This document shows, piece after piece, positions 3,922 through 62,405 of a stretch of DNA of 64,000 bases. The stretch covers positions 1 to 64,000 of the forward strand of contig JAFSTC010000071.1 of assembly GCA_017450705.1 (NCBI GenBank), read 5' to 3'. This DNA comes from Lentisphaeria bacterium. Its GTDB lineage: Bacteria; Verrucomicrobiota; Lentisphaeria; Victivallales; Victivallaceae. The stretch's first letter is position 1; each line of letters opens with the position of its first letter. The position numbers and the translations under genes were made by a program. The notes under the pieces are model-generated. The model was not told where the DNA came from and ran no database searches. It saw nothing but the letters and a program-made list of their open reading frames with translations.

Positions 3922-3946
3922 CGCTTCTTAGGAGAATATTTGAAAA

Positions 3947-5887: not shown

Positions 5888-5895
5888 TTTCCTCG

Positions 5896-5930: not shown

Positions 5931-5944
5931 GTCAGGAAGTCGAT

Positions 5945-6847: not shown

Positions 6848-6874
6848 AACCGCCTTTTGCGGGGGAGGGGGAAT

Positions 6875-8539: not shown

Positions 8540-8609
8540 TCATGGACGTATGCCGGCAGCGCTCCGCAGGGAGACGGCGTGCTGGCCCTCAAAAGGAAGA
8601 ATGCGGGCA

Positions 8610-9290: not shown

Positions 9291-9297
9291 AATCGCC

Positions 9298-10512: not shown

Positions 10513-10537
10513 CGCAACGATCCTTTCCAAAGAAGAT

Positions 10538-10566
10538 TTGAACTTTTCGCCGGGATGCGCTATTTT
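10538..10566 (+). promoter_or_regulatory. Promoter of the histidine kinase-dinB unit
   Basis: TTGAAC at 10538-10543, 17-bp spacer, TATTTT at 10561-10566. The predicted start point is near 10573, leaving a leader of about 35 nt. Confidence 0.65.
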
Positions 10567-10576
10567 ATTCCCTGTA

Positions 10577-10605
10577 AATATACACGTAAAAAAGGGATTT
10601 GTAAA
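10577..10605 (-). promoter_or_regulatory. Promoter of the secreted propeller gene
   Basis: On the minus strand: TTTACA (10605-10600), 17-bp spacer, TATATT (10582-10577). Its -10 box lies only 10 bp beyond that of the opposing histidine kinase promoter, so the two transcripts start almost at the same base pair and diverge. Confidence 0.6.
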
Positions 10606-10606
10606 C

Positions 10607-11764: not shown

Positions 11765-11781
11765 GAAAATTTCCCGTCAGG

Positions 11782-12861: not shown

Positions 12862-12864
12862 GAT

Positions 12865-12893
12865 TTGCATTCGCGCCGCGGCCGGTGTACATT
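12865..12893 (+). promoter_or_regulatory. Promoter of the MATE gene
   Basis: TTGCAT at 12865-12870, 17-bp spacer, TACATT at 12888-12893, followed by ATCCGCC as at the promoter at 1901. It begins 3 bp after the dinB stop codon. Confidence 0.65.
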
Positions 12894-12933
12894 ATCCGCC
12901 GACAGTTTTTTACGACAATTCCGGAAGTTTTTT

Positions 12934-14313
12934 ATGAATGCCGTGTTGCGGGGCGATCCCCGGCATCAGGTGGATATGTGCCGGGGACCTCTTCTGCGGA
13001 AGATCGTCCTCTTCTCCATTCCCCTCATCTTTTCGGGCATCCTGCAGCTGCTTTTCAACACGGTGGACCTGATTGTCGTCGGCCGCTTCGCCTCGTATCA
13101 GGCACTGGCTGCTGTGGGCGCGACGTCGTCTCTCACCCATCTGCTGGTGAATTTCTGTCTGGGGATCTCCATCGGCGCCAACGTCGCCGTCGCCCGCCGC
13201 CTCGGCGCCCGGAAAAAGCATGAAACCTCGCTTGCCGTCCACACGACCATCGCCTTTTCCCTGCTGTGCGGCCTCGTCGCAGGCGGCCTCGGCATCGCCG
13301 TCGCCCGGGGCATCCTCGGCGTCATGCGGACGCCCCCGGACATCATCGGCATGTCCGTGACCTACATGCGGATCTACTTTGCGGGGATGCCGATCGTGAT
13401 GCTTTACAACTTCGGCAGCGCCGTCATGCACGCCATGGGCGATACCAAAAGACCATTCTATTTTCTCATCATCGCGGGGATCGCAAATGTGCTGCTCAAT
13501 CTGTTTTTCGTCGTGGTCTGTCATTTTGACGTGGGCGGCGTCGCCGCCGCGACGGTCATTTCGCAGGGGATCGCCGCGCTTCTCATCCTCCGGGTGCTCC
13601 TGAAGACGCCGGGAGCCTGCCGGGTCAAACTGCGCTTGCTCCGGATCGACCGCGCGGTCCTTTCCGAGCTCCTCCGGATCGGCGTTCCGGCGGGTATCCA
13701 GCGGGGGTGTTTCTCTCTGGCGAATCTCTGGGTGCAGAGCTCCCTCAACACGTTCGGCTCCGTGGTCGTGGCCGGCAACACCGCCGCCATCGCGTGGGAG
13801 AGCATCGGCACGCTGCTGTCGTCGACCTTCGGGCAGACGCTGGTGAGTTTCGTCGGTCAGAATCACGGCGGGCGGCAGTATGCCCGGATCCGTACTTCGA
13901 TCAAATACTGCGGGATGCTGAGTTTCTTCTCGACGATGGCCTTCGCTGCGGCGCTTCTGGCGGGAGCGCGTCCGGCGCTGGCGCTTTTCAACACCGATCC
14001 CGACGTGATCGCCTGGGGCGTGGCCCGCTATTGGGTCATCATGCCGCCGCTCTGCATCTGCGGTTTTCAGGAGTGCTTCGCCTCCGCCCTGCGGGGCCTG
14101 GGCCACTCTCTGGGGCCGACGCTGGTCATGATCTTCTGCATCTGCGTGCTGCGCATCGTCTGGATCATGACGGTGTTCCGTTTCTGGCCGTCGTTCACCG
14201 TCCTCGTCATGACGTTCCCCGTCTCCTGGGCCAGCGCAGCCCTCTTCCTCGGCATCTATCTGCGGTACGCCCTCAAAAAGATCCCCCGCGAAAACCAGTC
14301 GCTCCCCGCGTGA
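12934..14313 (+). CDS. MATE family efflux transporter
   Basis: A 459-residue protein from ATG 12934, preceded by CGGAAG; in-frame TTG 12865 is part of the -35 box and is rejected. About twelve hydrophobic helices in two homologous halves start with LRKIVLFSIPLIFSGILQ and LLRIGVPAGIQRGCFSL. The family signature is seen in MYNFGSAVMHAMGDTKRP-type loops (bases about 13400-13460) and in the second half (FGQTLVSFVGQNHGG). MATE proteins export cationic drugs or metabolites in exchange for Na+ or H+. The stop codon lies exactly where the following mobile-element remnant begins. Confidence 0.92.
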   Translation: MNAVLRGDPRHQVDMCRGPLLRKIVLFSIPLIFSGILQLLFNTVDLIVVGRFASYQALAAVGATSSLTHLLVNFCLGISIGANVAVARRLGARKKHETSLAVHTTIAFSLLCGLVAGGLGIAVARGILGVMRTPPDIIGMSVTYMRIYFAGMPIVMLYNFGSAVMHAMGDTKRPFYFLIIAGIANVLLNLFFVVVCHFDVGGVAAATVISQGIAALLILRVLLKTPGACRVKLRLLRIDRAVLSELLRIGVPAGIQRGCFSLANLWVQSSLNTFGSVVVAGNTAAIAWESIGTLLSSTFGQTLVSFVGQNHGGRQYARIRTSIKYCGMLSFFSTMAFAAALLAGARPALALFNTDPDVIAWGVARYWVIMPPLCICGFQECFASALRGLGHSLGPTLVMIFCICVLRIVWIMTVFRFWPSFTVLVMTFPVSWASAALFLGIYLRYALKKIPRENQSLPA

Positions 14314-14364
14314 TTTTCGCCAACGTCGGGGAGGCGCCTTGCCGCCGAGGAATATATCGCCCAC

Positions 14365-17300
14365 ATGGCCGAGAGGGACGTCAAGCCCTCCTGGTGGCGG
14401 GAATTCATTCAGAAAATACGCATGGCGCTGTCGAAGTTGCCGCTTTTCAAAGACCTTGTCATGACTGACCGGGAGATCGAAACGCTCCTCGCCCGGGCCA
14501 GCCGCAGGATGCGCGCCCGGAACGGCGGCAACGCGACGCTGGATGTCATGTGGGGAGGACAGCCGGGGCAGGCGGGCGGTACGAACGCCCCGGCCAACAT
14601 CCGAGAATTCCTCGGCGGTCCCAGGGGCGCTTCCCGGATGCGCGACGCCGAAATGCGGCTGCAGAATCTGGAGACGGCCAGGTTCGCCGAAGGTTTTAAT
14701 GCGGACCCGAAGAAGATCTGGCTCGCCACGGGATGGACAAAACAGAAGGACGGGTGGAAGTTCGAGCTGCCCGATCTCAAACTCAAGCGGACGCAGACCC
14801 TTCCGGACGGGACGACGCAGGAACGGAGCTTCTTCGACATCAAGCTCACGGCGGGACGACTGGGGGATTACGTCGACGCGCCGGAGCTCTTCGAGGCCTA
14901 TCCGGAACTTGCGGAATACGATCTTCTGTTCGCGAACTTCGGGAAGAATTATGCCGGGTACTTTGACCACGTGCAGAAGCGGATCGTCGTCAATCTCGAA
15001 ACGAACGGCGCATTCCAGCAGGCCGATCTCGCCCACAGGCGGGCCAACGACGACCGGCTCCCGGAAGGCGACCGGGACCGGGCGAAAATGGAATACAAAA
15101 TCCTCATGGGCGAGGCGTTCAGGGAGTTCAACCGGGTGCTGATCCACGAGACACAGCACGCGATCCAGTACATCGAAGGGTTCGCCCCGGGGGCCAATAT
15201 CGAGCAGTTCAAAAAGATCGACGAACTGAAGCAGAAAGTCGCCGACTTCCGCAAAAAAGCGGACGCGAGCGAGAAATACCGTCGGTATGAAGAGATCGGA
15301 AAAGTATGGGACGAACTAAAGCCGGGGGAACAACTGACTGATGAATTCGAGGACGAGCTTGTTTCCCTGGGGGAAGATCCAGAAGTGAAAGCTCTCGAGG
15401 ACGAGCGGGTTGCCATCATCAAGGAAGAAGGAAACAATCTGGATCTCGCGTACGTACTGAAAGGCGAAAACGACACCAAATATTGGGAATCCATCATCAA
15501 GCGGGACGAGACCCGGGCCTTCAACTCCTACTGGAACACGGCCGGGGAGGTGGAAGCGCGAAACGCGGAAAGACGCTCCACCATGTCCGCGGAGGACCGG
15601 AAGAGCCGTCTGCCGGACGAAACCGCCGACGTGGCCCCGGAAGACCGGATCTATCTCGAGGAGGCGATGGGGGGAGGGACAAGCGCCTCCGTCGTCACCG
15701 AGCCGGATGTTTTGAAGGAACTGGACCGGCAGGAGGCCGAGGGGGAATATTTGACGCTGTACCGCGCTGTTCAAGTGATTGACGGAAAGCTTTATCCGAC
15801 GATGGCGGCAAAGGTCAACGGACAACTGGTTCCGCCCATCGAACTGGGCAAATGGGAGCAGTCAGACGAACACCCGGAGCTCGCCGACGAGGACGGATAT
15901 TTCAAACTCGACAAGGCCAACGGCAGCAGCATCAAGGCGCGATACAATCCCTACATCCACTCAAGTTCGAGCCCGCTCAACGATCAGTTTTCCTCGGCCT
16001 ACAAGAGGCCGAACATTGTCACGATCGAGGTCCACGTGCCTAAAAGCGAGCTCGCCAGCGGGTATCATGCGGAAAAGGCCTTCGATCCCGTGGGAATGAA
16101 AAAATGGAAAAGCGGCAGCGTTTCCAAAAAGATCTTCGGCGGCGACAAACGCCCGGTCATGCTCTCACGGTGGGATAAACCGATCCGCATTGTGCCCGAT
16201 TCCGAAGTCGCACAGAAGATCAAGGAGCTCATCGGCGATCGTGATATCACGATCCCGGCCAATGTCGTCACCCCCTCCCTGCGCCAGGAGCTGGAGAAGA
16301 TCGGCGTGCCGATGGAAGAGAAAAAAAGTCTTTCTGCAAAAGAGAACAGCCCGTGGGGAGAGGTGCATCCAGAATATTCAGGACAGGGAAGTCGTGCCGT
16401 TGATGCACTTCGCAAACTTGGGCGCGGATGGATTCCCGCGTTGTGGTCCCACAAGACAATCGGCGATATTGCATTGCCGTATGGAATGACTGATGAAGAT
16501 GCAAGAAAAATCGGCTATAAAACCGGGTATGGATTAGCACACATCGACGAAAGACACCCGGATTTGGACTGGGCTTCCGTAGACAAGACAATCTCGAACG
16601 GAAACATCAGACAAGATGGTAACAGGATTATTTTGACTGACACAGATTCGGCTCACAAGGCCATTGTGCAATTGACATTTGATGATCAGAAAGGAGCTTG
16701 GCTTGTTACAGCATACAAAATTGATGATGAAAGTGGAACGGAGCCCCTTGCCAATCCTCTTTCCACCGCTCATGGCGTTTATGGGGATGCGGACAATGTG
16801 ACCCCAAGAGACTCCGCTAATGACAATATATCACCGGATTCCGAAATGTCAAGCGGGGATACTGGGAATACTGGGAATACTGATATTCCTCATGGGAGGC
16901 TTGGCGATTTTGTCTATTATGTCGGAAACCTTCAAATGCCTCCGCAAGTCGCGCTTCAGCTGGCCGGGTGGGAATACGTTTCGCGCTCACCGTACAGCCA
17001 GAGTTACTACAATATGCCCGGGAAGTCTTGGGAGAATACGCCGGAAGGCGTGATCCGCATTTCGGACCATTGGAATTTCGAGAGCCGGAATGAAGTTCAT
17101 TGCACGACCGATTCCCCCGTCGAAAACAATTCCCATTGGACCGTTGCCCAATACAGAAACGGTGTCTACCGTGTTCTTTCTTCTGTTCCCAAGCTCGCGC
17201 CGGATGCGGCAAAGGCGATATCATCCAAGATAGAAGCCGAAAACGAGGAGGCCGCCCGCACCGCATATCCGAAAGCCTTTTCAAGCAGGCAAACGGACGG

Positions 17301-18180
17301 CGGCCTCGGGATCAACCATTGGGCGAGGAACAAAAAAACAGGAAAGATCATTGGCCGGATCGTCGAATCCGGGGGAAATCCGAAGATCTACAATATCGAC
17401 ACGATAGACGGAAGACAGATCAAAGTCCTTCGCGCCAACGTGGAAACTGTTTCTGCAAGCGATCTGCCGTCTGCGCAGAAATATGCCGTGAACACAGAGA
17501 CGAACGCCGTTCAGAAGGCTGAAACGGACGAAAACGGACGGGGACGGACGGATACGGACGGGGGGGAACTGCGGTTCTCCATCGACGAATACAGCGAGAG
17601 CACGCAGCGGGACATCATCGATCTGCTGCGGCCCTTCGTGGGCACGGTCGTGGAAAAGGAGCCGGAGGCATATGCGGCGTATTTGAAGAGAATGGGCGCG
17701 GACGTGCCGCCGGAGGACGCGATCAGGTTTGCCGTGATCGCCAAGTATGAGAACACCGAGGCCAGGGCCAAGCGCAAAAGGAAAATGCGGGACGATTGGC
17801 TCTACGAAAACGTCCCCCTGTGGAAGTGGGCCGTGGACTACGCCGGGACGCAGGATTTCAAGGTGCGTCTGGATCACCGAAACGAGGACAAGAATATTTC
17901 CGGCACGTTTCTCATCCATCAGGACGGCAAGGCCAACGTCCCCGTGATCGAACTTGAAGCGCTGGCCCGGGAGGTCGCCCGTGAACAGGGCCGGGACGAA
18001 CTGGACGTGGAATTTTTCCTGATGGTGCGCGGCGCGGGATTTGACAAGGCGGCGGGACGCCGCCGCAGAGCCGTGCCGCAGGCGCGGCAACCCCTCAAAA
18101 CAAATCAGCCGCGAACCGGAAGGAAAAAGAAGGAATTTCATTCCGGATTTTTTCCTGATGGTGCGCGGCGCGGGATTTGA
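14365..18180 (+). CDS. Truncated large polyvalent protein with nuclease-like toxin module
   Basis: 1271 residues from the first ATG, but the frame is open back to 14314 and the residues before the ATG (AAEEYIAHMAERD) look like interior sequence, so the N-terminus is missing. Order: an LPD23-like domain (about 120-290; GWTKQKDGWKFELPD, then HETQHAIQYIEGF); a coiled region; a domain starting LYRAVQVIDGKLYPTMAAKV (about 460-630) that recurs in gut phage and plasmid proteins; a barnase/EndoU/RelE-like nuclease module (about 690-800; GYGLAHIDERHPDLDW and ILTDTDSAHKAI); unknown domains; and a final domain (RFSIDEYSESTQRDIIDLLRP). Bases 16330-17520 are visibly less GC-rich than the flanks, suggesting a swapped-in cargo module. 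The last 56 residues are translated tRNA-repeat DNA. Such proteins travel with phages or conjugative elements; here it is probably non-functional. Confidence 0.7.
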   Translation: MAERDVKPSWWREFIQKIRMALSKLPLFKDLVMTDREIETLLARASRRMRARNGGNATLDVMWGGQPGQAGGTNAPANIREFLGGPRGASRMRDAEMRLQNLETARFAEGFNADPKKIWLATGWTKQKDGWKFELPDLKLKRTQTLPDGTTQERSFFDIKLTAGRLGDYVDAPELFEAYPELAEYDLLFANFGKNYAGYFDHVQKRIVVNLETNGAFQQADLAHRRANDDRLPEGDRDRAKMEYKILMGEAFREFNRVLIHETQHAIQYIEGFAPGANIEQFKKIDELKQKVADFRKKADASEKYRRYEEIGKVWDELKPGEQLTDEFEDELVSLGEDPEVKALEDERVAIIKEEGNNLDLAYVLKGENDTKYWESIIKRDETRAFNSYWNTAGEVEARNAERRSTMSAEDRKSRLPDETADVAPEDRIYLEEAMGGGTSASVVTEPDVLKELDRQEAEGEYLTLYRAVQVIDGKLYPTMAAKVNGQLVPPIELGKWEQSDEHPELADEDGYFKLDKANGSSIKARYNPYIHSSSSPLNDQFSSAYKRPNIVTIEVHVPKSELASGYHAEKAFDPVGMKKWKSGSVSKKIFGGDKRPVMLSRWDKPIRIVPDSEVAQKIKELIGDRDITIPANVVTPSLRQELEKIGVPMEEKKSLSAKENSPWGEVHPEYSGQGSRAVDALRKLGRGWIPALWSHKTIGDIALPYGMTDEDARKIGYKTGYGLAHIDERHPDLDWASVDKTISNGNIRQDGNRIILTDTDSAHKAIVQLTFDDQKGAWLVTAYKIDDESGTEPLANPLSTAHGVYGDADNVTPRDSANDNISPDSEMSSGDTGNTGNTDIPHGRLGDFVYYVGNLQMPPQVALQLAGWEYVSRSPYSQSYYNMPGKSWENTPEGVIRISDHWNFESRNEVHCTTDSPVENNSHWTVAQYRNGVYRVLSSVPKLAPDAAKAISSKIEAENEEAARTAYPKAFSSRQTDGGLGINHWARNKKTGKIIGRIVESGGNPKIYNIDTIDGRQIKVLRANVETVSASDLPSAQKYAVNTETNAVQKAETDENGRGRTDTDGGELRFSIDEYSESTQRDIIDLLRPFVGTVVEKEPEAYAAYLKRMGADVPPEDAIRFAVIAKYENTEARAKRKRKMRDDWLYENVPLWKWAVDYAGTQDFKVRLDHRNEDKNISGTFLIHQDGKANVPVIELEALAREVAREQGRDELDVEFFLMVRGAGFDKAAGRRRRAVPQARQPLKTNQPRTGRKKKEFHSGFFPDGARRGI

Positions 18181-49957: not shown

Positions 49958-50731
49958 TCAGGACAATATTTTTTGCAGCCCCGAGAAAAACATGACGGTT
50001 CCGGCCAGACACAGCAGCCCGTACACGCACAGCCGGAAGAGCCGTTCGTCGACTTTCCGGTGCAGAAAGTCCCCCAGAAAGATCCCCGCGAAAACGAAGG
50101 GCAGCGCAACGAGGAACCCCTGTCCCATCCGGGCGTTCCAGACGGTCCCCCGAAGCGTCCACTCGGCGATGCGGACGAGATTCATGGTGAGCCAGAGCAA
50201 GGTCAGCGTCACGCGGAAGATGCCCTTTTCGGGCAGCGCCCGCGAGGCGTAGATGACGATGAAAGGACCGCCGGTGCCGAACGCGCCGTGAACGATCCCG
50301 CCGAAAAACAGAAGAAGGCGCATGAGGATCCCCCTGCCCTGTCCGGCGGGAGCCGGCTGCTCCCGCCCGTTCCGCCACGTCCGCAGGAATCCGGATGCGC
50401 CGACGGTGATCATGACGCAGGAGAGCAGGACTTCCAGTACGGGCGCGGAAAGCCGGTTGAAGAGAAAGATCCCGACGGGCAGGCCGAGGGCGACATGCAG
50501 GGCTATGAACCGGTACTCCCGCCACACGACGGACTTCCGGGAGCGGAGAACGATATGGACCGACAGCAGCATGCTGAGCGTGCAGAGATAGGGGATGCTC
50601 ATTTTCAATCCCAGCAGCATGCTCACGAAAGGCAGGGCGATGACCGTACTGCCGAATCCGGTGACTCCCTCGACGGTGAACGAGGCAAAAACGACGGCCC
50701 CGGCGAGAAGCAGTTTCGTCAATTCTTCCAT
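49958..50731 (-). CDS. TauE/SafE family transmembrane exporter
   Basis: A 257-residue protein with about eight hydrophobic helices in two halves. The family motif in the first half is VEGVTGFGSTVIALPFVSM and in the second FFGGIVHGAFGTGGPFIVIYAS, both containing the G-x-G-G/S core of TauE/SafE (DUF81). Members export sulfite, sulfoacetate or other organic anions. No sulfur-metabolism genes are next to it, so the substrate stays open. It has its own promoter 77 bp upstream and is transcribed alone. Confidence 0.9.
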   Translation of the reverse strand: MEELTKLLLAGAVVFASFTVEGVTGFGSTVIALPFVSMLLGLKMSIPYLCTLSMLLSVHIVLRSRKSVVWREYRFIALHVALGLPVGIFLFNRLSAPVLEVLLSCVMITVGASGFLRTWRNGREQPAPAGQGRGILMRLLLFFGGIVHGAFGTGGPFIVIYASRALPEKGIFRVTLTLLWLTMNLVRIAEWTLRGTVWNARMGQGFLVALPFVFAGIFLGDFLHRKVDERLFRLCVYGLLCLAGTVMFFSGLQKILS

Positions 50732-50855: not shown

Positions 50856-51800
50856 TCAGTCCGCGGAGATGCTGTCGAGATACTCCCTGTAGCGGTCGTA
50901 GAGGTGGTGCGCCGAGGGATACATGCTGTTGGGACTCATGAAGTGCGAAAACTCGAAGGTGAGCGCCCGCGTCACCCCCGCCCTTTCCGCCGCCTTGAGC
51001 TTCAGCAGGAGTTTCTCCCATTTGATGGGCAGAAAACGGATCGGCATGTCCCGGTCGAAGGATTCGCTGTTGGTCCAGAGTTCGATGCCGTATTTATCCG
51101 CCAGCCGTTTGTTGAGGAGCATCGCGGGACCGATCTCCTCGTACGTCACGTGTCCGTCCTGGAACGCGATGATGTCCACGCTGCCGGCGACCGTTTTCAT
51201 GATGCGGTCCCAGGTGCGTTCGTGGTCTTCGAAGTCGAGATCGTGAGCGCCGGGTTCGTTGGGCATCCAGGCCTTCCGCCCCAGCATGCCCGGTGAAATG
51301 AGCGTCGGCAGATTTCCGGAGATCTCCTTGCAGTAACGGCTGTACCGCAGGAACTCCCTGACGATCGCCTCGTCCCTGCCCGATATCTCTTTGGAAAGAT
51401 ACCAGCCCTTGAAGGCCTTTCTGTGACCGTAGCGGGACCACACCTCGTCGAGCAGACGGCGTTCGACGTCCCATCTGGCATCGAGATCGACGTCCCTGTA
51501 GTGCCCGTTGTGCCGGAGCGCATAGGTGCCGAAGAAATAACGCATGTCATATTTTTCCGCCAGATCGAGGAACAGATCGACCAGATCGACAGGGGGCTCG
51601 TAGCACCCGAATTCGCCGATGAGGATCTTCGAGGGATAGGTTATGAATTTCTCCAGCCCGGAGCGGATCATGATGACCGTGTCGATGCCGATGGCCTTCA
51701 TGGCGGCGAAATCCCGGTCCCACTCCTTGCGGCCCCAGTTCTGATGGGGGATGTCCGAACTGATCTCGTCCAGAAACGTGGCTTTTATCCGAATACTCAT
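50856..51800 (-). CDS. DUF4434 TIM-barrel protein (glycosidase-like)
   Basis: 314 residues behind an AAGAAGG site. The opening IKATFLDEISSDIPHQNWG and the W-D-R-D-F-A-A-M-K pattern are typical of DUF4434, a predicted glycosidase-type TIM barrel. Barrel strands include DTVIMIRSG, MRYFFGTYAL, FKGWYLSKEISG (a Glu at the end of a strand, a catalytic candidate), DIIAFQDGHV and LTFEFSHFM (second Glu candidate). There is no signal peptide. It is the last gene of the leftward pseudopilin/giant-protein unit, 19 nt after the 1774-residue gene, so it may finish intracellular breakdown of what the secreted partners release. Confidence 0.8.
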   Translation of the reverse strand: MSIRIKATFLDEISSDIPHQNWGRKEWDRDFAAMKAIGIDTVIMIRSGLEKFITYPSKILIGEFGCYEPPVDLVDLFLDLAEKYDMRYFFGTYALRHNGHYRDVDLDARWDVERRLLDEVWSRYGHRKAFKGWYLSKEISGRDEAIVREFLRYSRYCKEISGNLPTLISPGMLGRKAWMPNEPGAHDLDFEDHERTWDRIMKTVAGSVDIIAFQDGHVTYEEIGPAMLLNKRLADKYGIELWTNSESFDRDMPIRFLPIKWEKLLLKLKAAERAGVTRALTFEFSHFMSPNSMYPSAHHLYDRYREYLDSISAD

Positions 51801-51819: not shown

Positions 51820-54800
51820 TTATTTGGAGGTGAACAAATAAACGAGTCCCTTCATCGTGACGGCGGCGACGGCATTCCCCGAAACGGCCGTCCGGGCCAT
51901 GATCTGGGAATCCAGCTGGGCCTGCCACAGGACTTTTCCCGAGGTCAGGTCGAGCACGTAAAGCTTGCCGTCGAGAGCGCCGCAGATCACCGTGCCGCCC
52001 GCGATGACGGGCGACGCGGAAACTTCGGGATATCCGCGTCTGTGATAAGGCGTGGCGGGGATCAGCGCCTTCCCCGGCTTGAAATGCCACGATTCTTTGA
52101 GCGTTTCCCGGTCAAGGGCATGCAGTCCGTCGGGAGAGCCGAAGACGATGATCTTCTCCGCAACGGCGGGCGCCGAAGCAGTCTCCATCCCGGCGGGCTT
52201 GGCCGTTTCCCGGAGGATCTTTCCCGTCGCGGGATCGATGACGAAAAATATCTTCCGGCCCTTGAAATACATTTCCCCGCCGGCAATGACAGGAGACGCG
52301 TCGAGATAGGTGAAGTCCCGTCCCCGGCGCAGGTTCCATAGGATCTTCCCCGTCGCCGTATCGAAGCCTTTCAATCCGTACCGCCAGGAGACGCCGGAGA
52401 TGCCGATGTTGCCGGAAACGGCGACGCCGCCTGTCCAGACGCCGCCCGTTTCCCGGGTCGTCGGGCCCTGATATTTGATCTTTCCCGTGGCGCAGTCGAT
52501 GAGCACGGGAGCTTCGTTGTAGAGCAGGAGCGTGCCGTTGTCAATGACCGGAGCCCCGTACATGCCGTTGGTCTTTTCCGCATCGGCCACGGCGGTCTTC
52601 CAGAGGATCTCGCCGGTGCTCTGCCGCAGGGAGAACACCTGGCCGTCGACGCAGCAGACGTAAAGGTTTTTCCCGTCGGAGGCGATGCCGCCCTTGACGG
52701 CGGCGCCGACGGTCTGTCTCCAGAGCTGTTTCCCGTCGGAAGCGTCGAATGCGGTGACCGCGGACTTTTCGGCGTTGTCATTGTCGCTCGCCGCGACAAA
52801 GATCCTGCCGCCGCAGATGACGGGCGGGGCATGATGGACCGCGCCCCCCGCGTCGGCACGCCACCGGAGGAAGAGCGGGGGAGGAACCTCTTCCGGGACG
52901 ACCGCGTTGCGGCTGCTGCCGAAGCCGGCCATGAGACAGGAGCCTCCGAGCCTCACGGCAGGCGCCGACGGATCGGGGGAAACAACGGGGTCGGCGACCT
53001 TTCCCGGATCGGAGTGAACGACCTCCGAAACGAGCCTGCCGTCGACTTCCCGGAAGATCCGGAAGGCCCGCGGGGAACCGTCAAGACCGCCCCCCGGCGC
53101 GGGAGAACACTCCCAGACGGGGATCCCGCCGGGGAACTTGCGGCACAGCAGGCTGTGAGTGTGTCCGCAGATGAAGCCGGCTATTTTTCCGGCATGTTCG
53201 GAAAAGAGGTGATCGATCAGCCGGTCGCCATACTGGGGCGGCTCATGACGGTGGATGACGATCTTTTTCCCCGCCGGAAGAAGAGCCAGTTCCCGTTTCA
53301 GCCACGCCCTCTGATTTTCGGGATCTTTGAGATTCCGCTCGTAAACGATGTTGAAGAATCGGAAGTTTCCGGCATCGAAGGAGTAGTACACGGGGCCGAA
53401 GTGTTTTTCGTAGGCCTCGCGGGTGTGCTCCGTCCCCTTGCTTTCCATGTCGTGATTGCCGGGGATGACGAAAACGTCCATTTGACACAGGGGCATCTTT
53501 TCCGCATGGCCGGCCAGACCGACGATATCGCCCGAATGGAGCAGAAAATCCCCCTTGTCCTTTTTCCCCAGCGCCGTGATCTCGCCGAGCCATGTCTCAG
53601 GTCTCCTCGCCTCCGTGTCGGTCACCTGATAGAAGACCAGCGGACGTTTTTCGGCGGGCGCAAATCCGAACGCGAGATCGTCGCTGTCCGCCGTCCTGTA
53701 AAACGGCGTACTGCATTTGTACCCCGCAGGACGGGAGGCGAAAATGAAACGCGCGGCTTCGTTTTTTGCGATCGAAAAGGATCCGTCTGCGGCGGTCTGC
53801 ACGACGGTCACTCCGTTGGAGACCCGGATCCCGGCCAGGCCCTTTTCGCCGTCGTCTCTTTTCCCGTTGCCGTTTTTGTCCTCGAAGACGATCCCCGTGT
53901 ACTTGTCGGACTTCTTCCCTGCCTTGCGGATGCCGCGATAGGTCACGCGCTGACGGATCACTGCCTTTTTCCCGGAGGGGATTTTGAAACGGTACAGCGG
54001 CTCCACCGTGAGGATCCCCGCGTTTTCACGCCACAGATGAACGCCGTAACAACCGTCGTCGAAGGAGAACTCCACGGCCTCCTCTTCTCCGAAGGATCTG
54101 ACGGAAAAGCGGACTTTGCCGCCGTTCCAGATCTCCCGTTTCGCATTGGAGAACTCGAGGACGGCATTCTCCTTGTGCCAGACCGTCGAGATCGGGGAGC
54201 CGACGGGCGAGAGAAGTTTTCCTGAGGAGACTTCCGCCGCGGCGCCCGGAAGTTTCCCCTCGGGGATCAGCGCGCCGGGCATCGGGATGTTGCGGATCCT
54301 TGCGAAAAATTCGATCGCTTTTCCGGAACTGCCGGGGTTGACGATCTCCCACTCGCAGTCGACGGTGTTGCCGCCGTCGGCAAGAGTCACGCGCTTGACG
54401 ATCTCGACCCCCGTGTATTTCTCAGCCTCGGGATTGGCGTCCTCCGGCGCCGGGACAACGTAACGGAACTCGATGCCGCCGTCTGTTTTCCGTGCGGAGA
54501 ACTTCTCTCGGCCGCCGAGGAAGGGGACGACCAGTTCGGCCAGCTTTCCCCGGGTCCCCCGCAGATCCAGGAGATCGTTGAGCGCCGAGGCCGCGGAGCG
54601 CCAGCCCATGACGAGGGCCTGATTCCCGGGGGCGATGTAGACGGCGCGTTTTTCCGCGGTCAGTTTGATCATGGCGATCTTTTCCGGCCGCAGAAGCCCG
54701 TAAGTCAGGCCGCCGCCGGTCGTTTTTCCGGAAGCGGAGGAATGGAATTTTTCCAGTTCGGCCGCGAGCTTTCCGGCGGGGACGGCTTTGTTCTCCGCGG

Positions 54801-57144
54801 AGAAGACCCAGATCCCCGCGTCGCAGGACTTGATCTTGACCAGATACTTCCCGTCAGCCGTGCGTTCCGGGGGCGTACAGCCGGCGAGAGCACGGGGGAC
54901 AAGTCCCGCATCCCTGGACGCGAGCTCGAGGATGACATCCTCTTCCGGATGATAGTTGAGGACCGTCAGCAGCAGCTGATCCCCTGCCCTGTGAACGGTG
55001 TGCCGGAGGAACGGCGCGAAATCAGGGGTCTGCATGACAAAGGTCTCCCCGTCGTCGGAGAGTTTGCGGTCGATCGTGTTCTTCGGGACGAAGGAGACGG
55101 CGTCGTCGCAGCGGGCCCCCGCCATGTAGAAGTCTTCGGCCGCCCCAACGATGCGGGAGGCGCGGAGCATTTCATGCAGGTAGGCTCCGTCGAAAAAGTC
55201 GTTGGGCCAGAAGCCGATGCCGACGCCGCCCAGCATGGCCGTGGCGACGATGTTGAGTTTGACGCCGGCCGGCGTATAGCGGATGTAAAACCGGCGGTTC
55301 ACTTCCGAGGGGTCGATAAAGGGGAACCAGGGGGTCTTGAGCTGCTTCCGGTTGAAGGCCGTGGTGTCGTAAAAACTCGTCCCCTCGAAGTAGGGCATGT
55401 TCCGCATGTAATCCAGCCCGATGCTGTCGCTCTGGCGGCAGTCCACGGCGCACCAGTCTGAGATGAGCGACCCGGTGGGGTGCAGGATATCCGTGACGAG
55501 AGAGACCTTCCTGCCCGGAAAATGTTTCCGGCAGGAGTCGAGATAACGCCGGATGATCCGCCGGTGCTGTTCGACCCGGAACTTGAACCAGGTGCCGGAA
55601 TGCCGCGCAAGGATCTGCTCCCGGGTGGGAACGGTTTTCATTTTTGCGAATTTCGCGAATTCCTCCAGACAGACCGGACAGAAGCAGTGACGGGTCGGAT
55701 GGGGTTCCAGGTCGAAATCGATGAGATCCACTTCGATTTTCCCGGCGCGCTCGCGCAGAAGCGTGGGGACATAATTGTCCCAGATGTATCCCTCGGGATC
55801 ACGGATGAGATAATCGGGGCAGAGGACTTCATCCGGCTCCCGGGGAGACCGGGGGACGCAGAGCGGGAACTTGACGTTCCTCGTCTTGGGGTCGTTGCGT
55901 TTCCACCGGGCGAACCCGAGCCGCGGCATGCTGCCCATGCTGCCGATCTCGATGGCTTTTTTGAAACCGGCGGTCTTCCGGCCGATGACGGAGGGATCGA
56001 CGTGACGCCACGCCCAGGGATCGATGCAGATCACCTGCGGAACGGAAAGGGCTTTCCAAAGTTCGACGTGCTGTTTACCGATCTCCTCGGGAGCCCCGAC
56101 CAGATTCGGGATGTACGAAGGGCAGATGATGAACTTTTCGGGGACTTTCCCGCCGTACTCGAGAGGCGGCAGGATCTCGAGGTTCAATGGCTGCGGCGTA
56201 TCGTTTCCGGCATACCATCGGCCCGCGCCCCGGGTGCCGGGAGCGCCGGTGGCCCGGACGAACACGCGGTAGGTGTTGTTCCAGGCCCGCCAGTCCTTCA
56301 TCACATGGGGCGGCAGCGTCAGTGTGTAGCGGGTCATGCCGCCGGAGAGTTTTTCCTTCCGGGGCGTTTCACAGCTCCACTTCCAGAAAGGGTCCCTGTC
56401 TTCGGCGGGCCGGGTGGCGGCGCCGCCTGCGATCTCGAACCCCGCCGGAAGCTCAAAAAAAAGGGACTGCGTTTCTTTCGGTCTCTGACCGGTGAAAGTG
56501 CAGTCCCAGGTCGCCGTGAACCCCCGGGGAATGCGGTATCTCCCGTTCTGGAACTCAACGGGGAAGAGATTCACCCTTTTTTTTTTATCCGCCGAGGCGG
56601 CGGGCGGGGGCTGCTCCCCGATCTCCTCGAGACTTATATCCGCAAAATCCGCCGGTCCCGTGGCCAAGGTCAGGGAGAGGTAAACGGAGACCAGCTGACT
56701 GGGCTTGAGCGTCCCGGTTTTGAACGTGCCCCGGTAATCCGTCCAGCCGGTGGTCCCGTCGATCATGTGCCACATTCGGGCGGCGCCGGAGAAAAGATAT
56801 TTCCCGGCGGTGAAACTGATGCCCGCGCCATGGGTGACCTTGTTGGGCAGCTGGCGTTTCACGTCCTTCGTCCGCATGCGGAACTTGAACATGTACGTCG
56901 TATCCGACTTCAGTTTCACCTGCTGGACGCACAAAGTCGCGAATTTGTTGTCCTTGTGGTTGTAGATGGAGAGATAGTGCTCGTCCCCTTCGGTCTTCAC
57001 CTCCCGTCCGCCGGGGGTCTTCGTCCAGGAGGAAAAAGTCCAGGACTTCGCGCCGTTGGTGAATTTGCCGTTGACGAGCAGGTTTTCCCCCGCCTGGAGG
57101 ACGAAAAGGCACAAAAATGCCCAAATGACCGCAAATTTCTTCAT
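51820..57144 (-). CDS. Giant secreted protein: barrel domain, metallophosphoesterase and PQQ-type propeller
   Basis: 1774 residues from ATG 57144 behind AAGGGGAT. The signal peptide is MKKFAVIWAFLCLFVLQAGE. Order: a carbohydrate-binding-module-like sandwich (20-185); beta-rich linker domain (190-335); a TIM-barrel-like region (about 340-720) with FDLEPHPTRHCFCPVCLEEF near 481, whose cysteines may bind zinc; beta domains to about 1070; a MetallophosN-type domain (DKNGNGKRDDGEKG near 1090, a calcium-binding-like loop); and a calcineurin-type phosphoesterase with LLHSGD (about 1200), IPGNHDME (1228), HRHEP and CGHTHS (1326). The C-terminal 350 residues form a PQQ-type beta-propeller (repeats such as FDASDGKQLWR, IDPATGKILRET, LDLTSGKVLWQ). 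It is likely exported to the periplasm or surface, acting on a phosphorylated or complex glycan. I know of no family with this full fusion. Confidence 0.82.
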   Translation of the reverse strand: MKKFAVIWAFLCLFVLQAGENLLVNGKFTNGAKSWTFSSWTKTPGGREVKTEGDEHYLSIYNHKDNKFATLCVQQVKLKSDTTYMFKFRMRTKDVKRQLPNKVTHGAGISFTAGKYLFSGAARMWHMIDGTTGWTDYRGTFKTGTLKPSQLVSVYLSLTLATGPADFADISLEEIGEQPPPAASADKKKRVNLFPVEFQNGRYRIPRGFTATWDCTFTGQRPKETQSLFFELPAGFEIAGGAATRPAEDRDPFWKWSCETPRKEKLSGGMTRYTLTLPPHVMKDWRAWNNTYRVFVRATGAPGTRGAGRWYAGNDTPQPLNLEILPPLEYGGKVPEKFIICPSYIPNLVGAPEEIGKQHVELWKALSVPQVICIDPWAWRHVDPSVIGRKTAGFKKAIEIGSMGSMPRLGFARWKRNDPKTRNVKFPLCVPRSPREPDEVLCPDYLIRDPEGYIWDNYVPTLLRERAGKIEVDLIDFDLEPHPTRHCFCPVCLEEFAKFAKMKTVPTREQILARHSGTWFKFRVEQHRRIIRRYLDSCRKHFPGRKVSLVTDILHPTGSLISDWCAVDCRQSDSIGLDYMRNMPYFEGTSFYDTTAFNRKQLKTPWFPFIDPSEVNRRFYIRYTPAGVKLNIVATAMLGGVGIGFWPNDFFDGAYLHEMLRASRIVGAAEDFYMAGARCDDAVSFVPKNTIDRKLSDDGETFVMQTPDFAPFLRHTVHRAGDQLLLTVLNYHPEEDVILELASRDAGLVPRALAGCTPPERTADGKYLVKIKSCDAGIWVFSAENKAVPAGKLAAELEKFHSSASGKTTGGGLTYGLLRPEKIAMIKLTAEKRAVYIAPGNQALVMGWRSAASALNDLLDLRGTRGKLAELVVPFLGGREKFSARKTDGGIEFRYVVPAPEDANPEAEKYTGVEIVKRVTLADGGNTVDCEWEIVNPGSSGKAIEFFARIRNIPMPGALIPEGKLPGAAAEVSSGKLLSPVGSPISTVWHKENAVLEFSNAKREIWNGGKVRFSVRSFGEEEAVEFSFDDGCYGVHLWRENAGILTVEPLYRFKIPSGKKAVIRQRVTYRGIRKAGKKSDKYTGIVFEDKNGNGKRDDGEKGLAGIRVSNGVTVVQTAADGSFSIAKNEAARFIFASRPAGYKCSTPFYRTADSDDLAFGFAPAEKRPLVFYQVTDTEARRPETWLGEITALGKKDKGDFLLHSGDIVGLAGHAEKMPLCQMDVFVIPGNHDMESKGTEHTREAYEKHFGPVYYSFDAGNFRFFNIVYERNLKDPENQRAWLKRELALLPAGKKIVIHRHEPPQYGDRLIDHLFSEHAGKIAGFICGHTHSLLCRKFPGGIPVWECSPAPGGGLDGSPRAFRIFREVDGRLVSEVVHSDPGKVADPVVSPDPSAPAVRLGGSCLMAGFGSSRNAVVPEEVPPPLFLRWRADAGGAVHHAPPVICGGRIFVAASDNDNAEKSAVTAFDASDGKQLWRQTVGAAVKGGIASDGKNLYVCCVDGQVFSLRQSTGEILWKTAVADAEKTNGMYGAPVIDNGTLLLYNEAPVLIDCATGKIKYQGPTTRETGGVWTGGVAVSGNIGISGVSWRYGLKGFDTATGKILWNLRRGRDFTYLDASPVIAGGEMYFKGRKIFFVIDPATGKILRETAKPAGMETASAPAVAEKIIVFGSPDGLHALDRETLKESWHFKPGKALIPATPYHRRGYPEVSASPVIAGGTVICGALDGKLYVLDLTSGKVLWQAQLDSQIMARTAVSGNAVAAVTMKGLVYLFTSK

Positions 57145-57180: not shown

Positions 57181-57966
57181 TCAGAGTGCCTTGATGGAAC
57201 CGATGACCTTGTAGTATTCGAAGCCGACCTTGAGCGGGACTTTGTAGTCGTTGGTGGTCGCACCGTCCTCGAGAAACTCCTGCCCGGTCCTGGCCCCGGC
57301 GTGGCCGTCCATGTAGGCGACCTGGCATTTCCCGCCCTGAATGGGCGCGGCGGTGCTTCCGTAGGGCCTTGTCTCGCTTGCTCCGTGACGGAACCTGCCG
57401 TAGAGAAGACTTGCGGCGACGATCTGATTCTGGACGCCGCTGTCATAGCAGTATACGGCCTTGGTCGGCTGTGTCAACGCCGACGTCTTCCGGAAAAAGT
57501 TGTAATCCGCCAGAGAGATATACCCGGCAAGCCACGGATTGACGACGTAGTGCGTATAGCGGAATCCGGCCGACGCGTGGAAATTGATCGACTCGCTGGG
57601 ACAGGCGAAACTGCCTTTGGCGACATAGCCGTAATAGGTCAGTCCGTAACCGCTGCCGCTGAGCTGGTGAGGATCTCCGTTCACGGTCCGCCCGCTGAGC
57701 AGATTGTACCACAGTTTTCTCGTGGTGTCGCCGCCGTTGGAGGGCGTGATCCAGTCGTCGCTGGCTCCGGCGTACATCTGGACCCCCGTGCCGATCTGTT
57801 TGAGATTGTTCATGCACGTGGAGGTCTTGGCCCGGTCCCGGGCCGCCTGCAGCGCGGGCATGAGCATCGCGGCCAGAATGGCGATGATGGCGATGACGAC
57901 CAGCAGCTCTATCAGGGTGAAGGGACGCAGTTTGCCGATGTTCCGGCGACGTGAGAAATCCGACAT
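57181..57966 (-). CDS. Pseudopilin-type protein with prepilin leader
   Basis: 261 residues from ATG 57966 behind AAGGAG. After a 20-residue basic leader ([10 protein letters not shown]) comes the type IV prepilin core [20 protein letters not shown], cleavable before Phe with Glu at +5. The remainder is a DUF1559-like globular head with GSFACPSES and a C-terminal YMDGHAGA, corresponding to the H-x-DG motif of such proteins. No type II secretion or type IV pilus assembly gene is in the window. It heads the leftward unit with the giant secreted protein (36 nt downstream) and is divergent from the GntR regulator gene. It probably displays or carries glycan-binding surface structures; that role is inference. 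Confidence 0.9.
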
Positions 57967-58027
57967 GATCGACTCCTTACTTTCAAGTTGATGCGAGTTT
58001 GACCCACCATTTCGCAGTGACAGGCAT

Positions 58028-58056
58028 ATTATACACGGGGAGCGGGGCGTTGTCAA
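58028..58056 (-). promoter_or_regulatory. Promoter of the leftward glycan unit
   Basis: Minus strand TTGACA (58056-58051), 17-bp spacer, TATAAT (58033-58028): a near-consensus promoter that would need strong repression. Confidence 0.85.
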
Positions 58057-58087
58057 TGTCAAATCCTGTCAATATCAATGTCAAATC
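58053..58087. promoter_or_regulatory. Direct repeats TCAATGTCAAATC (operator candidate)
   Basis: Two perfect 13-bp copies at 58053-58065 and 58075-58087, 22 bp apart (two helical turns). The first covers most of the -35 box of the leftward promoter. The GntR regulator encoded just to the right is the natural candidate to bind here. Confidence 0.65.
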
Positions 58088-58231: not shown

Positions 58232-59257
58232 ATGACGCCCAAAGAACAAATGTCCTTTGCCGATCAGCTGGCGGAGTCGCTGCGCAAGGCGATCCGGAGC
58301 GGTCAGTTCGCCCCGGGGAGCAAACTGCCTGGAGAGCGCAAACTCTCCCAATATTACGGGGTCTGCCGGGCGACGGTGGTTTCCGCACTGGAAAAACTCG
58401 AGACGGAAAATCTCATCAAAAAGATCCCGGCCCGGGGAAATTTCGTACTCGACCGCAGCATCCCGCCCCGCATTCTGCTTGTCTGGCCGGGGGAGGAACT
58501 CGGCAAGGCCGACAAACCCGAAACCACGTTTTCCTTTTTCGAATTTTACAGGGGGATGCTCCACGAAGCGGCGAACTGCAATACGGAGATTTCCACGGTC
58601 TGCGTTCCCGAAGGACTCTCCGGCAAGGCGCTGGAACGGTGCATCGCCAGGATCGACGCCTTCGACTCGATCGTTTTCCCCGCGCACCAGCTTCTTGAAC
58701 TGCGGCGGCATTTCTGCGGTCGCAAGACACTGGTCGCAAAATACAGCTTCATCACCCCGCCCTCCCCCGGGGAGCGGGCGCATATCTCTCTGATCACGAC
58801 GGATTACGTTCTCGCGTTCCGTCGTTTTGCGGAGCGGATCCGCCGGGCCGGACACGGGGAACTGACGATCCTGACCCCCGCCCCCAATGCGTGGTTTCGG
58901 GAGCGCGCCCGGGTGCTTCGCACGGCGGCGGAAGAATCGGGATTGTCCGCCGAAGATATCGTGTGCCCTCCCGAAAGATTCGCGGACATCCTGCCGGAAC
59001 TGCGGGGAAAGCAGATCTTTTTCAATCACACGAACACGCTGAATCTCTTTTACCACGCCTGCCTGATGGCGGGACTCCTTCCCGGCAGGGATATGATATT
59101 GACATCCATGTGTTCCGGGGAAACGCTTTCCGGCCTGATCCCGCCTCCCTCGTACATCAGGATCCCGAACTATGAAACGGGGCGGAAGGCCTTCCAGCTC
59201 GCGTGGAAACAATCCCCGCCGCAGCTCGTCGCCGTTCCCGCGGAATTCGTCGAATGA
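58232..59257 (+). CDS. GntR-family regulator with LacI-like sugar-binding domain
   Basis: 341 residues. Residues 1-75 are a GntR winged helix: [42 protein letters not shown], followed by the wing [12 protein letters not shown]. From residue 78 the chain alternates strands and helices as in LacI/periplasmic-binding effector domains ([51 protein letters not shown]). This combination (as in AraR) senses sugars and usually represses catabolic genes. Its position between two divergent units with operator-like repeats supports local control of both. The first ATG is at 58232; no strong ribosome site is seen. Confidence 0.88.
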
Positions 59258-59304: not shown

Positions 59305-60054
59305 ATGAAAAAAACGAACACGCACTTCACTTTGATTGAGCTCCTGGTCGTCATCGCCATCATCGCCATCCTGGCCGCGATGCTCATGCCCGCGCTGCAG
59401 CAGGCCCGCGAGCGGGGCAAGACGACGACGTGCGTCAACCAGCTCAAGCAGATCGGTCAGGCGATGTTCTCCTATCAGGCGGAATACGACGACTTCTACC
59501 CCTGGTCGTCCTACACGGCGCACAAGTGGGCGTGGATATTCTATCAGAAGTACCTGCCGTCGCGAAAAGCTTGGAAGTGCCCCTCCGCCAGCGTCTTCAC
59601 CAACAATTACATCGACGGTTCCGAGGATGTTCTCAACTGCGCCGAAAGCAATCTGCAAAGCCGCTTCACGAGCTACATGCCCTACGGCTACAACTACGTG
59701 GGCTTCGCCTCGACGAGGGCCTGGGGAGCGACGCTCAATGCCGACGTCGTTTTCGGCGTCAAGGTCTCTCAGGTGCGCAAGCCTTCGATCAAAATACTGC
59801 TGGGCGACAGCGCCCGCAACAACGCGGACGGCACACCGAAACTTGATACACAGTGCGGCTGCAACCTGTGGTTCCAGCCGACCAGCACCTCGTGGAGTGC
59901 GCTTCACGACCGGCACGGCGGCGAGTCGGCCAACATCGGCTGGGCCGACGGGCACGTCACCAACGAACATGATTCCCGCTTCAAGTACATCCGCATCGAC
60001 GGTTCCGAAGACACCGCCGTCAAAAGACACTGGATGGCCTGTACGGTCAAATGA
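59305..60054 (+). CDS. Second pseudopilin-type protein with prepilin leader
   Basis: 249 residues from ATG 59305 after AAAGGA; ATG 59290 in frame is possible and would add five residues. The very short leader (MKKTNTH) precedes [20 protein letters not shown], cut before Phe. The head has paired cysteines ([20 protein letters not shown]) and a C-terminal H-x10-DG motif ([16 protein letters not shown]), one residue longer than the usual H-x9-DG. It lies 47 nt after gntR and 17 nt before the first beta-helix gene. Except for the leader and tail motif it is unlike the pseudopilin of the leftward unit, so each unit has its own type. Confidence 0.9.
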
Positions 60055-60071
60055 TTTTTGAGGAGAGATCA

Positions 60072-62405
60072 ATGAAACGCCTGATCACGACCGTCTGCGC
60101 CCTCTTCTGCATCTGCGGGGTCGGGGCCTTCGACGTCAAAGAGTTCGGCGCCAAGGGCGATGGAAAGACCGACGACACCGCGGCGATCCAGAAGGCCCTG
60201 CGCCATATCGCCAAACGGATCAAATACGACCGGTTCCGTCAGGAGGACGGCTGGAACGGCGGCGGGACGGAGACCCATGTGGACGAACTGTTCTTCCCCG
60301 AGGGAACCTATGTGATCTCCCGCACGCTTCTTGCCGACGGCTCCGTCTCGCTGCGGGGCGTCAGGAACAAAGGCATCATCAAAATGACCGATCCGAAACA
60401 GGACGTCTTCTACTGCCGCGTCTACCGCAGGCTCCTCGTGGACGGCATGACCTTCGACGGCGGTTTCACCCAGATCGACGTCTGGAGCGGCAACTGGAAC
60501 GCAAGCTCCGTGCACATCACCCGGACGGTGTTCAAAAACGCCGCGGCTCCGGCTTTCCGCAACGTCAGCCGGCGGGTGAAGCGGAAAAAGGTGGACTGGT
60601 CCGTCGGACTGGCGAAGCTGATCAAATCGGACGTCATCAAAATGATCCCGACCCACGAGGTCACCTTCGAGGGCGAAACGCCCGTTCTCAAGCGCAGCAG
60701 TCAGGCAAACTCCATCTCCTGGTTTTCCAGCAACATCATCAGCATCCGGGAGTGCGAATTCCTCAACTGCGCCCGGGCCTTCGAAAACAATGCGGACGGG
60801 ACGCTGATGGAAAACTGCACCGTGACCGCCTCCCCCGGCGCCGAAGGTCCCGTCTGTCTCGTCCGGACCGGATCGGCGCCCAACATGCTGACCATGAAAA
60901 ACTGCACCTTCCTCGCCCACGCGACGACGAAGAAACAGCTCTGGTTCAAAAACGACGGGTTCTACTTCACGCTCAGGAACTGCCGCTTCGAAGCGCAGCA
61001 GCCCATGCCGCTTCTGGAGCAGGAAACGGCGAAGATCCCCCACTCCTCCACGGCGGGGAACATCCTGATCGCCGGCTGCGTTTTCGAACAAAAGGGAACG
61101 CCGCCGCCCCAGGTCATCCTGAAGCGGGTGCCCAGCTATTTTCTCTTCAGGGGAAACCGCTTCAAGGGGGAAACGCCCCGGCTTTTCGACTGGGCTGTGA
61201 AGGATCTCGACGAAAAATATCTTCAACGCGACAGTTTCGCCGGGAAACATCAGGGCGTTCCGTGGGCTCTCGAAAACAAGTACCAGTTCATCTTTGCCCG
61301 CAACGAAAATGTGGATATCAACTGCCCCGAGATCATCAGGCGGTTCATTCACAAGGAAGTCCCACGGCTGCACACCGTTCCGGAAAAAATGCCGGAGATC
61401 GCGGATGTTTTCAAAGGGGAGCTGCGCGCGGCCGATTTCGGCGTCAGAGCGGACGGAAAAACCGATGACGCCGATTCTCTGGAACGGGCCATGGCCGCCG
61501 CCGCGAAACAGAATAAAACTTTGATCATTCCGACGGGAAGGATCCGTGCGGCGCGCACGGTCAAACTCCCCCCGCGGATCTCGCTTCGGGGCGAAGGCAT
61601 GCCCGTGATCGGCGGCGATACCCGCAGCGGATACGATCTCTTCGAAGCGGAAGAACCGGAAGACATCCGTTTCCGCGGCCTGATCCTGCGCAACGGACGG
61701 CACATCCTCAAAGCGAAACTCGGGACAAAATCGAAAATCGTCTCCTTCCGCGACGTGCTGATCGTCGACACGGACCGGCTGAGCATCCTGCTGGAAGGTA
61801 AGGAAAACAACTGTCTTCTCGAACTTGTCGGCTCCCTCTGGAACGGCGCGGGCGGCATCGATTCTTCCGCGAGGTACAACGCCGTCTCCCTCTGCTGGTT
61901 CGCCAACAACTTCTGGATGGACGACATGGCCTTCTTCACGGCGAGACGGGGCACGACCGTCATGCAGAACGGCTTTTTCGTGCCCTACATCGCAAAAAAC
62001 ATCAAACGCACCAACAGGAAAACGGGGGAATCCAAACTCTGGCCCCTTGGCGGCGATCTGCGCTGGGTCGACAATGCCGGGAGCCGGGTCTTCATGTACG
62101 ACTGCCGCGGCGGCGGTGAGGCCGGCGGCTACTGCTCCTGTTACCACACGGCCCCCGGCGGCTTCGACGTGATCGAGGGGGGACTTGCCCGCATGACTTA
62201 CAAATATACGAAAAACGCCATCGTCTATGCGGCGGCGGCTCCGGACTGGGTCCTCGTTTCCGCCGTCGGCGGGTATCCGATCCACACCGTTCTGGGTGTG
62301 CGGCACCGGGTGTGGATGAAGGCCGACGGCGTCGGCGACTTCCCCGTCTACATCCTCGGTTCCATGACGCCCCAGAAGGGACCGGAAAAGAAGAACGGCA
62401 AATAA
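60072..62405 (+). CDS. Secreted double beta-helix protein (pectate-lyase-3 fold)
   Basis: 777 residues from ATG 60072 behind AGGAGAG. The signal peptide MKRLITTVCALFCICGVGA is followed by the fold-start signature FDVKEFGAKGDGKTDDTAAIQKAL. Right-handed beta-helix rungs follow (FLNCARAFENNADGTLMENC, MLTMKNCTFLAHA, FYFTLRNCRFEAQQ). At residue 452 the start signature recurs (LRAADFGVRADGKTDDADSLERA), followed by LIIPTGRIRAARTVKLP and a second helix, so two helices are fused. The family includes pectate lyases, polygalacturonases and phage tail lyases; catalytic residues cannot be assigned. The following gene is a close paralogue. Confidence 0.88.
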   Translation: MKRLITTVCALFCICGVGAFDVKEFGAKGDGKTDDTAAIQKALRHIAKRIKYDRFRQEDGWNGGGTETHVDELFFPEGTYVISRTLLADGSVSLRGVRNKGIIKMTDPKQDVFYCRVYRRLLVDGMTFDGGFTQIDVWSGNWNASSVHITRTVFKNAAAPAFRNVSRRVKRKKVDWSVGLAKLIKSDVIKMIPTHEVTFEGETPVLKRSSQANSISWFSSNIISIRECEFLNCARAFENNADGTLMENCTVTASPGAEGPVCLVRTGSAPNMLTMKNCTFLAHATTKKQLWFKNDGFYFTLRNCRFEAQQPMPLLEQETAKIPHSSTAGNILIAGCVFEQKGTPPPQVILKRVPSYFLFRGNRFKGETPRLFDWAVKDLDEKYLQRDSFAGKHQGVPWALENKYQFIFARNENVDINCPEIIRRFIHKEVPRLHTVPEKMPEIADVFKGELRAADFGVRADGKTDDADSLERAMAAAAKQNKTLIIPTGRIRAARTVKLPPRISLRGEGMPVIGGDTRSGYDLFEAEEPEDIRFRGLILRNGRHILKAKLGTKSKIVSFRDVLIVDTDRLSILLEGKENNCLLELVGSLWNGAGGIDSSARYNAVSLCWFANNFWMDDMAFFTARRGTTVMQNGFFVPYIAKNIKRTNRKTGESKLWPLGGDLRWVDNAGSRVFMYDCRGGGEAGGYCSCYHTAPGGFDVIEGGLARMTYKYTKNAIVYAAAAPDWVLVSAVGGYPIHTVLGVRHRVWMKADGVGDFPVYILGSMTPQKGPEKKNGK

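Follow-up and report, generated by a model that had tools for sequence, protein, structure and literature searches.

The window analysed here, a stretch of 64,000 nucleotides (G000:C39:1-64000), belongs to a Lentisphaeria genome that is 97% complete. Its minus strand carries a single open reading frame that starts with ATG and encodes 1774 amino acids in 1774 codons without an internal stop codon (Table 1). An earlier note on this DNA had described the product as one chain with a signal peptide, and this description holds, as the frame is continuous and opens with a Sec-type signal peptide (MKKFAVIWAFLCLFVLQA-GE) recognized by inspection of the sequence. Three Pfam families were found above their gathering scores, namely MetallophosN (PF16371, residues 1098-1146, 45.8 versus 35.6 bits), Metallophos (PF00149, residues 1186-1331, 35.8 versus 21.5 bits), and PQQ_2 (residues 1460-1686, 116 versus 27.6 bits). 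The claimed D-x-N-x-N-G-type loop of MetallophosN was found as an SdrD-B-like Ca-loop, DKNGNGKRDDGE (D-K-N-G-N-G-K-R-D-D-G-E), at the start of this domain, and the claimed PQQ-type propeller was likewise recovered. For the proposed binding module, CBM_4_9 was indeed matched at residues 21-150, but only weakly and below the cut-off (E 0.0015, 19.3 versus 25.9 bits), and a Foldseek search with the first half yielded the hyaluronan-binding module 4d0q. Residues 186-1075 had no Pfam match, and NCBIfam added nothing but sub-threshold propeller models. The domains listed in the earlier note were thus present; one further domain, a galactose-mutarotase-type beta-supersandwich at residues of about 812-1075, had been missed.

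Table 1. Features of the fusion gene and its neighbourhood (window positions; residues refer to the fusion protein).
Feature	Position	Strand	Basis
TauE/SafE-type anion exporter	49958..50731	-	domain match
DUF4434 protein, 20 bp downstream of the fusion gene	50856..51800	-	E 3e-68
Fusion gene	51820..57144	-	signal peptide + CBM-like + beta-sandwich + (beta/alpha)8 barrel + supersandwich + MetallophosN + metallophosphoesterase + BamB-like propeller
BamB/YxaL-like 8-bladed propeller, residues about 1416-1774	51823..52899	-	PQQ_2 116 bits; fold match
Calcineurin-like phosphoesterase core, motif I to motif V, residues 1176-1331	53152..53619	-	Pfam and motifs
MetallophosN, residues 1098-1146	53707..53853	-	Pfam, 45.8 bits, cut-off 35.6
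Fusion junction, residues about 1068-1085	53890..53943	-	G020 homologue ends at the position matching residue 1076
C-terminal beta-sandwich and galactose-mutarotase-type supersandwich, residues about 679-1076	53917..55110	-	fold match to GalM
(beta/alpha)8 barrel, residues about 336-672	55131..56138	-	AF2 secondary structure, GH42/PgaB fold match, conservation
C-x-C-x2-C (CFCPVC, residues 487-492), shortly past Glu480	55669..55686	-	sequence; GH42 alignment
Beta-sandwich before the barrel, residues 186-335	56139..56589	-	AF2 strands
CBM-like jelly roll, residues 20-185	56590..57087	-	CBM_4_9 and Foldseek 4d0q
Sec-type signal peptide, residues 1-20	57085..57144	-	read from sequence: KK, hydrophobic run, QA-GE
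DUF1559 pseudopilin-like protein, directly upstream, conserved in G005	57181..58062	-	domain match and G005 comparison
GntR-family regulator, divergent	58232..59257	+	domain match
Rhamnogalacturonase/pectate-lyase-like beta-helix protein, divergent arm	60051..62405	+	E 2.7e-24

The divergent arm also contains another DUF1559 gene. Because genes of this family are abundant throughout the genome, they are weak evidence by themselves; judged by its gene content, the combination of GntR, DUF1559, and rhamnogalacturonase-like genes looks like a polysaccharide-use locus.

The earlier note had named an assembly fusion of two genes as one of the findings that would undo its reading, and there are indeed relatives that carry two genes. 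In G020, a third species, the first half is 72% identical and ends with ...VNYLGIKKVK-stop at the equivalent of residue 1076, followed by the DUF4434 gene; the 5' part of this gene runs off the contig, and the second half was not found in the genome, which is 76% complete. On another contig (C49) of G005, the goat-rumen MAG RGIG3718, which represents a second species, the first half (1168 aa), the second half (884 aa, with a CBM-like N-terminal region of its own), and DUF4434 are encoded by three consecutive separate genes in the same order as in the fusion. However, G005 also contains an identically fused frame (on C243) with 78% identity over all 1774 residues, and this MAG is independent of the window's genome. 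The Ka/Ks ratio between the two genes (Nei-Gojobori) is 0.15 overall and 0.086 over junction residues 1050-1110, and both are flanked by DUF1559, DUF4434, TauE, isochorismatase-like, and PMT genes. We therefore regard as negligible the probability that two genes were merged into this frame by an error of assembly or sequencing. The simplest history is gene adjacency followed by fusion, and in G020 the second half may have been lost or may never have been present.

The search for the same fusion order elsewhere yielded only this one further genome, so that the fusion occurs in 2 of 197 genomes of the class. It was not encountered in a sample of 387 genomes of the phylum, and no record of a plasmid collection covers it or encodes the barrel half, for which reason spread on plasmids was rejected. 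The statement that no protein with this domain order has been described is consistent with these results. The fusion is thus real, conserved, and rare, and it joins two known kinds of module, of which the barrel family is unclassified. About 1 kb upstream of the G005:C243 orthologue, an open frame (L022:13131-14069) holds a second CBM-like copy, possibly a partial duplicate, which shares about 51% identity with residues 20-175 of the fusion protein. The TauE exporter was considered as a clue to sulfite, and hence to a sulfated or sulfonated substrate, but this idea was dropped, as the gene is kept in G005 but was not found in the G020 stretch.

An AF2 model of residues 20-1076 was built from ten sequences and reached a pLDDT of 80 (model residue 1 corresponds to protein residue 20). 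Eight strands, at residues 339-342, 370-374, 394-403, 474-478, 546-552, 579-583, 606-610, and 642-645, alternate with helices; a barrel was therefore present in the prediction for residues 340-720, where the earlier note had proposed a TIM-barrel-like region. The closest solved structures were GH42 beta-galactosidases, PgaB, a GH164 beta-mannosidase, and beta-amylase (VIA-align, Z 18-20 over 285-380 residues; for the GH42 and PgaB matches, Z of about 20 and an rmsd of about 4 over 298-380 residues). The model and these structure matches identify a clan GH-A-type (beta/alpha)8 fold. Foldseek also returned neopullulanase, GlgE, and GH2 entries, but at high rmsd, and these were taken as multi-domain alignments and not as evidence for a family. 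The supersandwich, at residues of about 812-1073 (model residues 793-1054), matched GalM (4bze) with Z 18.1 over 229 residues and an rmsd of 3.2.

GH42 enzymes have their catalytic glutamates at strands 4 and 7 and a Zn-binding cysteine cluster. In the window protein, Glu480 lies at the end of strand 4 in a D-x-E-P motif that is invariant in 17 of 17 aligned family members, and Glu614 lies four residues past strand 7 in a D-P-x-E motif that is present in 16 of 18. On the model, the two residues are candidates for the positions of the clan GH-A catalytic pair. What had been described as a Cys/His cluster in the barrel is the C-x-C-x2-C motif, which is fully kept in about half of the aligned members. 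A profile of the barrel family aligned with the GH42 protein 3tts, albeit weakly (E 0.43), and this alignment placed DxEP on the region of the strand-4 catalytic Glu and C-x-C-x2-C on the CYC..C of GH42. The similarity to GH42 structures (Gan42B 4oif, BiBga42A 8ibs, 3tts) includes the barrel and the next domain, about 370 residues in total, with Z of about 18-20. In contrast, sequence identity is only 9-13%, and the window protein has extra CBM, sandwich, and mutarotase-type domains in addition to the fused phosphoesterase. In the barrels of 17 members, neither GH42 nor another Pfam family was matched at E 0.5, apart from CBM9 and spurious hits confined to individual members, and no NCBIfam family was found in them either. 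The barrel was therefore not assigned to GH42; based on the fold, the invariant E480, the frequent E614, and the partially retained Cys cluster, we call it clan GH-A-like.

Contig scans for the barrel with the single protein gave no match, and a 17-row alignment was too divergent, whereas a 7-row alignment detected nine loci. Roughly 70 matches to the family (E<=1e-40) were found in 41 of 197 genomes of the class. DUF4434 genes adjoin barrel genes in G005 (twice), G020, G053, and others. In 12 genomes, which were not chosen at random, 8 of 25 barrel genes had DUF4434 as a neighbour no more than about 3.1 kb away, compared with a chance expectation of about 0.2 (a rough value from gene counts and genome sizes); 3 of the 8 pairs are orthologous. 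DUF4434 is a steady partner of the barrel family. The barrel family has no Pfam or NCBIfam name and may well prove to be a new family of glycoside hydrolases, for which E480 and E614 are the candidate catalytic residues to be tested.

The second half, residues 1077-1774, was said to contain a complete calcineurin-type active site. Motifs II to V are intact (GD1206, GNHD1229-1232, H1300, GHTH1327-1330), but motif I reads D1176-T-E1178, i.e. D-x-E instead of the usual D-x-H. On the strength of the profile score and motifs II to V, the domain was classified as a PF00149 variant; as Glu replaces the motif I His, metal binding may be altered. The D-x-E form is shared by most Lentisphaeria relatives and by a Bacteroides homologue, and D-x-H was found only in one small clade (L056, L087, L094). 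Another clade (L079, L089, L097) has D-x-Q in motif I and GGH (GGHD) in place of GNH in motif III, and judging from these residues catalysis may have been lost or changed there. The AF2 model of the second half was built from three sequences and had a pLDDT of 63; the propeller was modelled well, and MetallophosN and parts of the phosphoesterase core had low confidence. The propeller is 8-bladed and of the BamB/PQQ_2 type, with Z 39 to 7cqy, 38 to YxaL, and 33-38 to BamB, and with tetrathionate hydrolase among the matches at 33-39. Its scores stay far below the cut-offs of all NCBIfam models for BamB or PQQ dehydrogenases, and it was not assigned to the PQQ-dependent dehydrogenases (TIGR03075, 63.5 bits versus a cut-off of 480).

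Proteins of Lentisphaeria and Bacteroidales annotated as "PQQ-binding-like beta-propeller repeat protein" share the order MetallophosN-Metallophos-PQQ_2, the D-x-E motif, and the propeller with residues 1077-1774. In contrast to the window module, which has neither a signal peptide nor a CBM of its own and forms the continuation of the barrel protein, they are mostly separate genes of 690-880 aa, and in the class most genes for this metallophosphoesterase (MPE)-propeller module stand alone. In the MPE-propeller tree, however, fusions occupy three places, i.e. the window fusion, L024, and a group with DUF4838, a domain that we take to be a kind of GH-like barrel. On this phylogeny, the module appears to have been fused to large proteins independently at least three times. 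The DUF4838 fusions (L034-L036, 1346-1348 aa) resemble the window protein in combining the module with another large domain, but their partner domain comes after the module, whereas the barrel comes before it, and they form a separate branch. L024:5464-10002 encodes a 1513-aa protein in which the module is joined to an 800-aa region with a YDEP motif and no Pfam match. Standalone genes adjoin DUF4838 genes (L079, L080) or, in L096, a melibiase-like gene, and three other proteins with the module bear a Laminin-G lectin domain. The Bacteroides finegoldii homologue (L128, plasmid NZ_OY725915.1) has D-x-E, and only 4 bp separate its gene from two preceding GH3 genes. The whole run, with two phosphodiester-glycosidase-family genes, BACON, DUF6528, the two GH3 genes, and the MPE-propeller gene, is a candidate locus for phosphodiester-bearing glycans. 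The link to phosphodiester glycosidases holds only for this plasmid. A NAGPA-type phosphodiester glycosidase is absent from the window's genome, and as a linked partner in Lentisphaeria it was rejected, because none was found on the examined contigs with MPE-propeller genes, except one far off in G051.

With evenly divided confidence, we propose that the fusion of two neighbouring genes has generated a secreted bifunctional polysaccharide degrader, in which the barrel cuts and the phosphoesterase removes phosphate from one and the same substrate. The single secreted chain would thus carry two activities. The clan GH-A-like glycoside hydrolase of the first half would cleave the backbone or a side chain of a polysaccharide, with E480 as the likely acid/base and E614 as the likely nucleophile. 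The phosphoesterase would take phosphate, as a monoester or diester, off the same polymer or its fragments, the non-enzymatic BamB-like propeller might serve as a scaffold for binding the substrate or a partner, and the fusion would keep cutting and phosphate removal together. The folds, the motifs, the fusion with its conservation, the unfused relatives, and the type of locus are observations; the hydrolase activity of the barrel, its catalytic pair, phosphate as the group removed, and the common substrate are what we infer. When two genes are fused, their products probably work together, for which fusion is strong evidence, and the fold, the conserved Glu positions, and the motifs bear out the earlier description of a glycanase-like barrel joined to a phosphoesterase. 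A phosphorylated glycan, the target suggested at that time, is the natural joint reading and plausible, because the locus looks like one for polysaccharide use, GH-like genes recur as fusion partners or neighbours of the MPE-propeller module, and the Bacteroides neighbourhood contains the GH3 genes together with two phosphodiester-glycosidase-type genes; the examples given, phosphomannan or a teichoic-type polymer, found no specific support. The proposal is weakened by the lack of Pfam and NCBIfam matches for the barrel, the absence of a NAGPA-type gene from the genome, the motif I Glu, the low-confidence model of the phosphoesterase, and the small number of fusions.

Two other explanations were weighed against this. 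The barrel might be a glycoside hydrolase while the phosphoesterase-like half scavenges phosphate from other organic sources, such as nucleotides, phytate, or glycerophosphodiesters, or has degenerated into a binding module; in either case, the fusion would share only secretion and surface anchoring. The motif I Glu of most relatives, the side clade without the motif III Asn, and the prevalence of standalone genes are in line with this possibility. Nevertheless, a general phosphatase would not be expected to be fused to or encoded beside GH-like proteins time and again, and both Lentisphaeria and Bacteroides retain the other metal ligands, so that we find it doubtful. We deem it distinctly improbable that the barrel, instead of being a hydrolase, binds sugars as a non-catalytic or transferase-type domain and that the whole chain binds or senses glycans. 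Such a role would fit the lack of a characterized homologue and the missing strand-7 Glu in 2 of 18 aligned relatives, but DxEP is invariant, DPxE is nearly so, and the top structural matches are catalytic GH barrels.

An extension of the bifunctional degrader, which we rate as unlikely, is that the barrel half defines a glycoside-hydrolase family of its own, whose substrate is a polysaccharide with phosphomonoester or phosphodiester substituents, with the D-x-E MPE-propeller as its dedicated dephosphorylating partner. If true, Lentisphaeria and Bacteroidales would have a recurrent "dephosphorylate and cut" pairing, here united in one enzyme. The recurrent pairing of MPE-propeller and GH-type proteins, in this fusion, in other independent fusions, and in gene neighbourhoods, yields a testable prediction on the handling of substituted glycans by gut and rumen bacteria. 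A literature search on Lentisphaeria metallophosphoesterases and glycoside hydrolases, DUF4838, DUF4434, and MPE-propeller PULs retrieved no relevant paper.

Elsewhere in the window, positions 3947-18180 contain phage-related genes. Their PHROG matches comprise a DNA polymerase (11380-12861) as well as kinase-type and unknown phage families. A 1271-aa protein at 14365-18180 has weak matches to the polyvalent domains LPD23 and PBECR1. This region is probably a prophage or a prophage remnant. On the minus strand, a 1443-aa open frame (3875-8206), which has no Pfam match, runs antisense to the phage-like genes and is probably a chance antisense frame.
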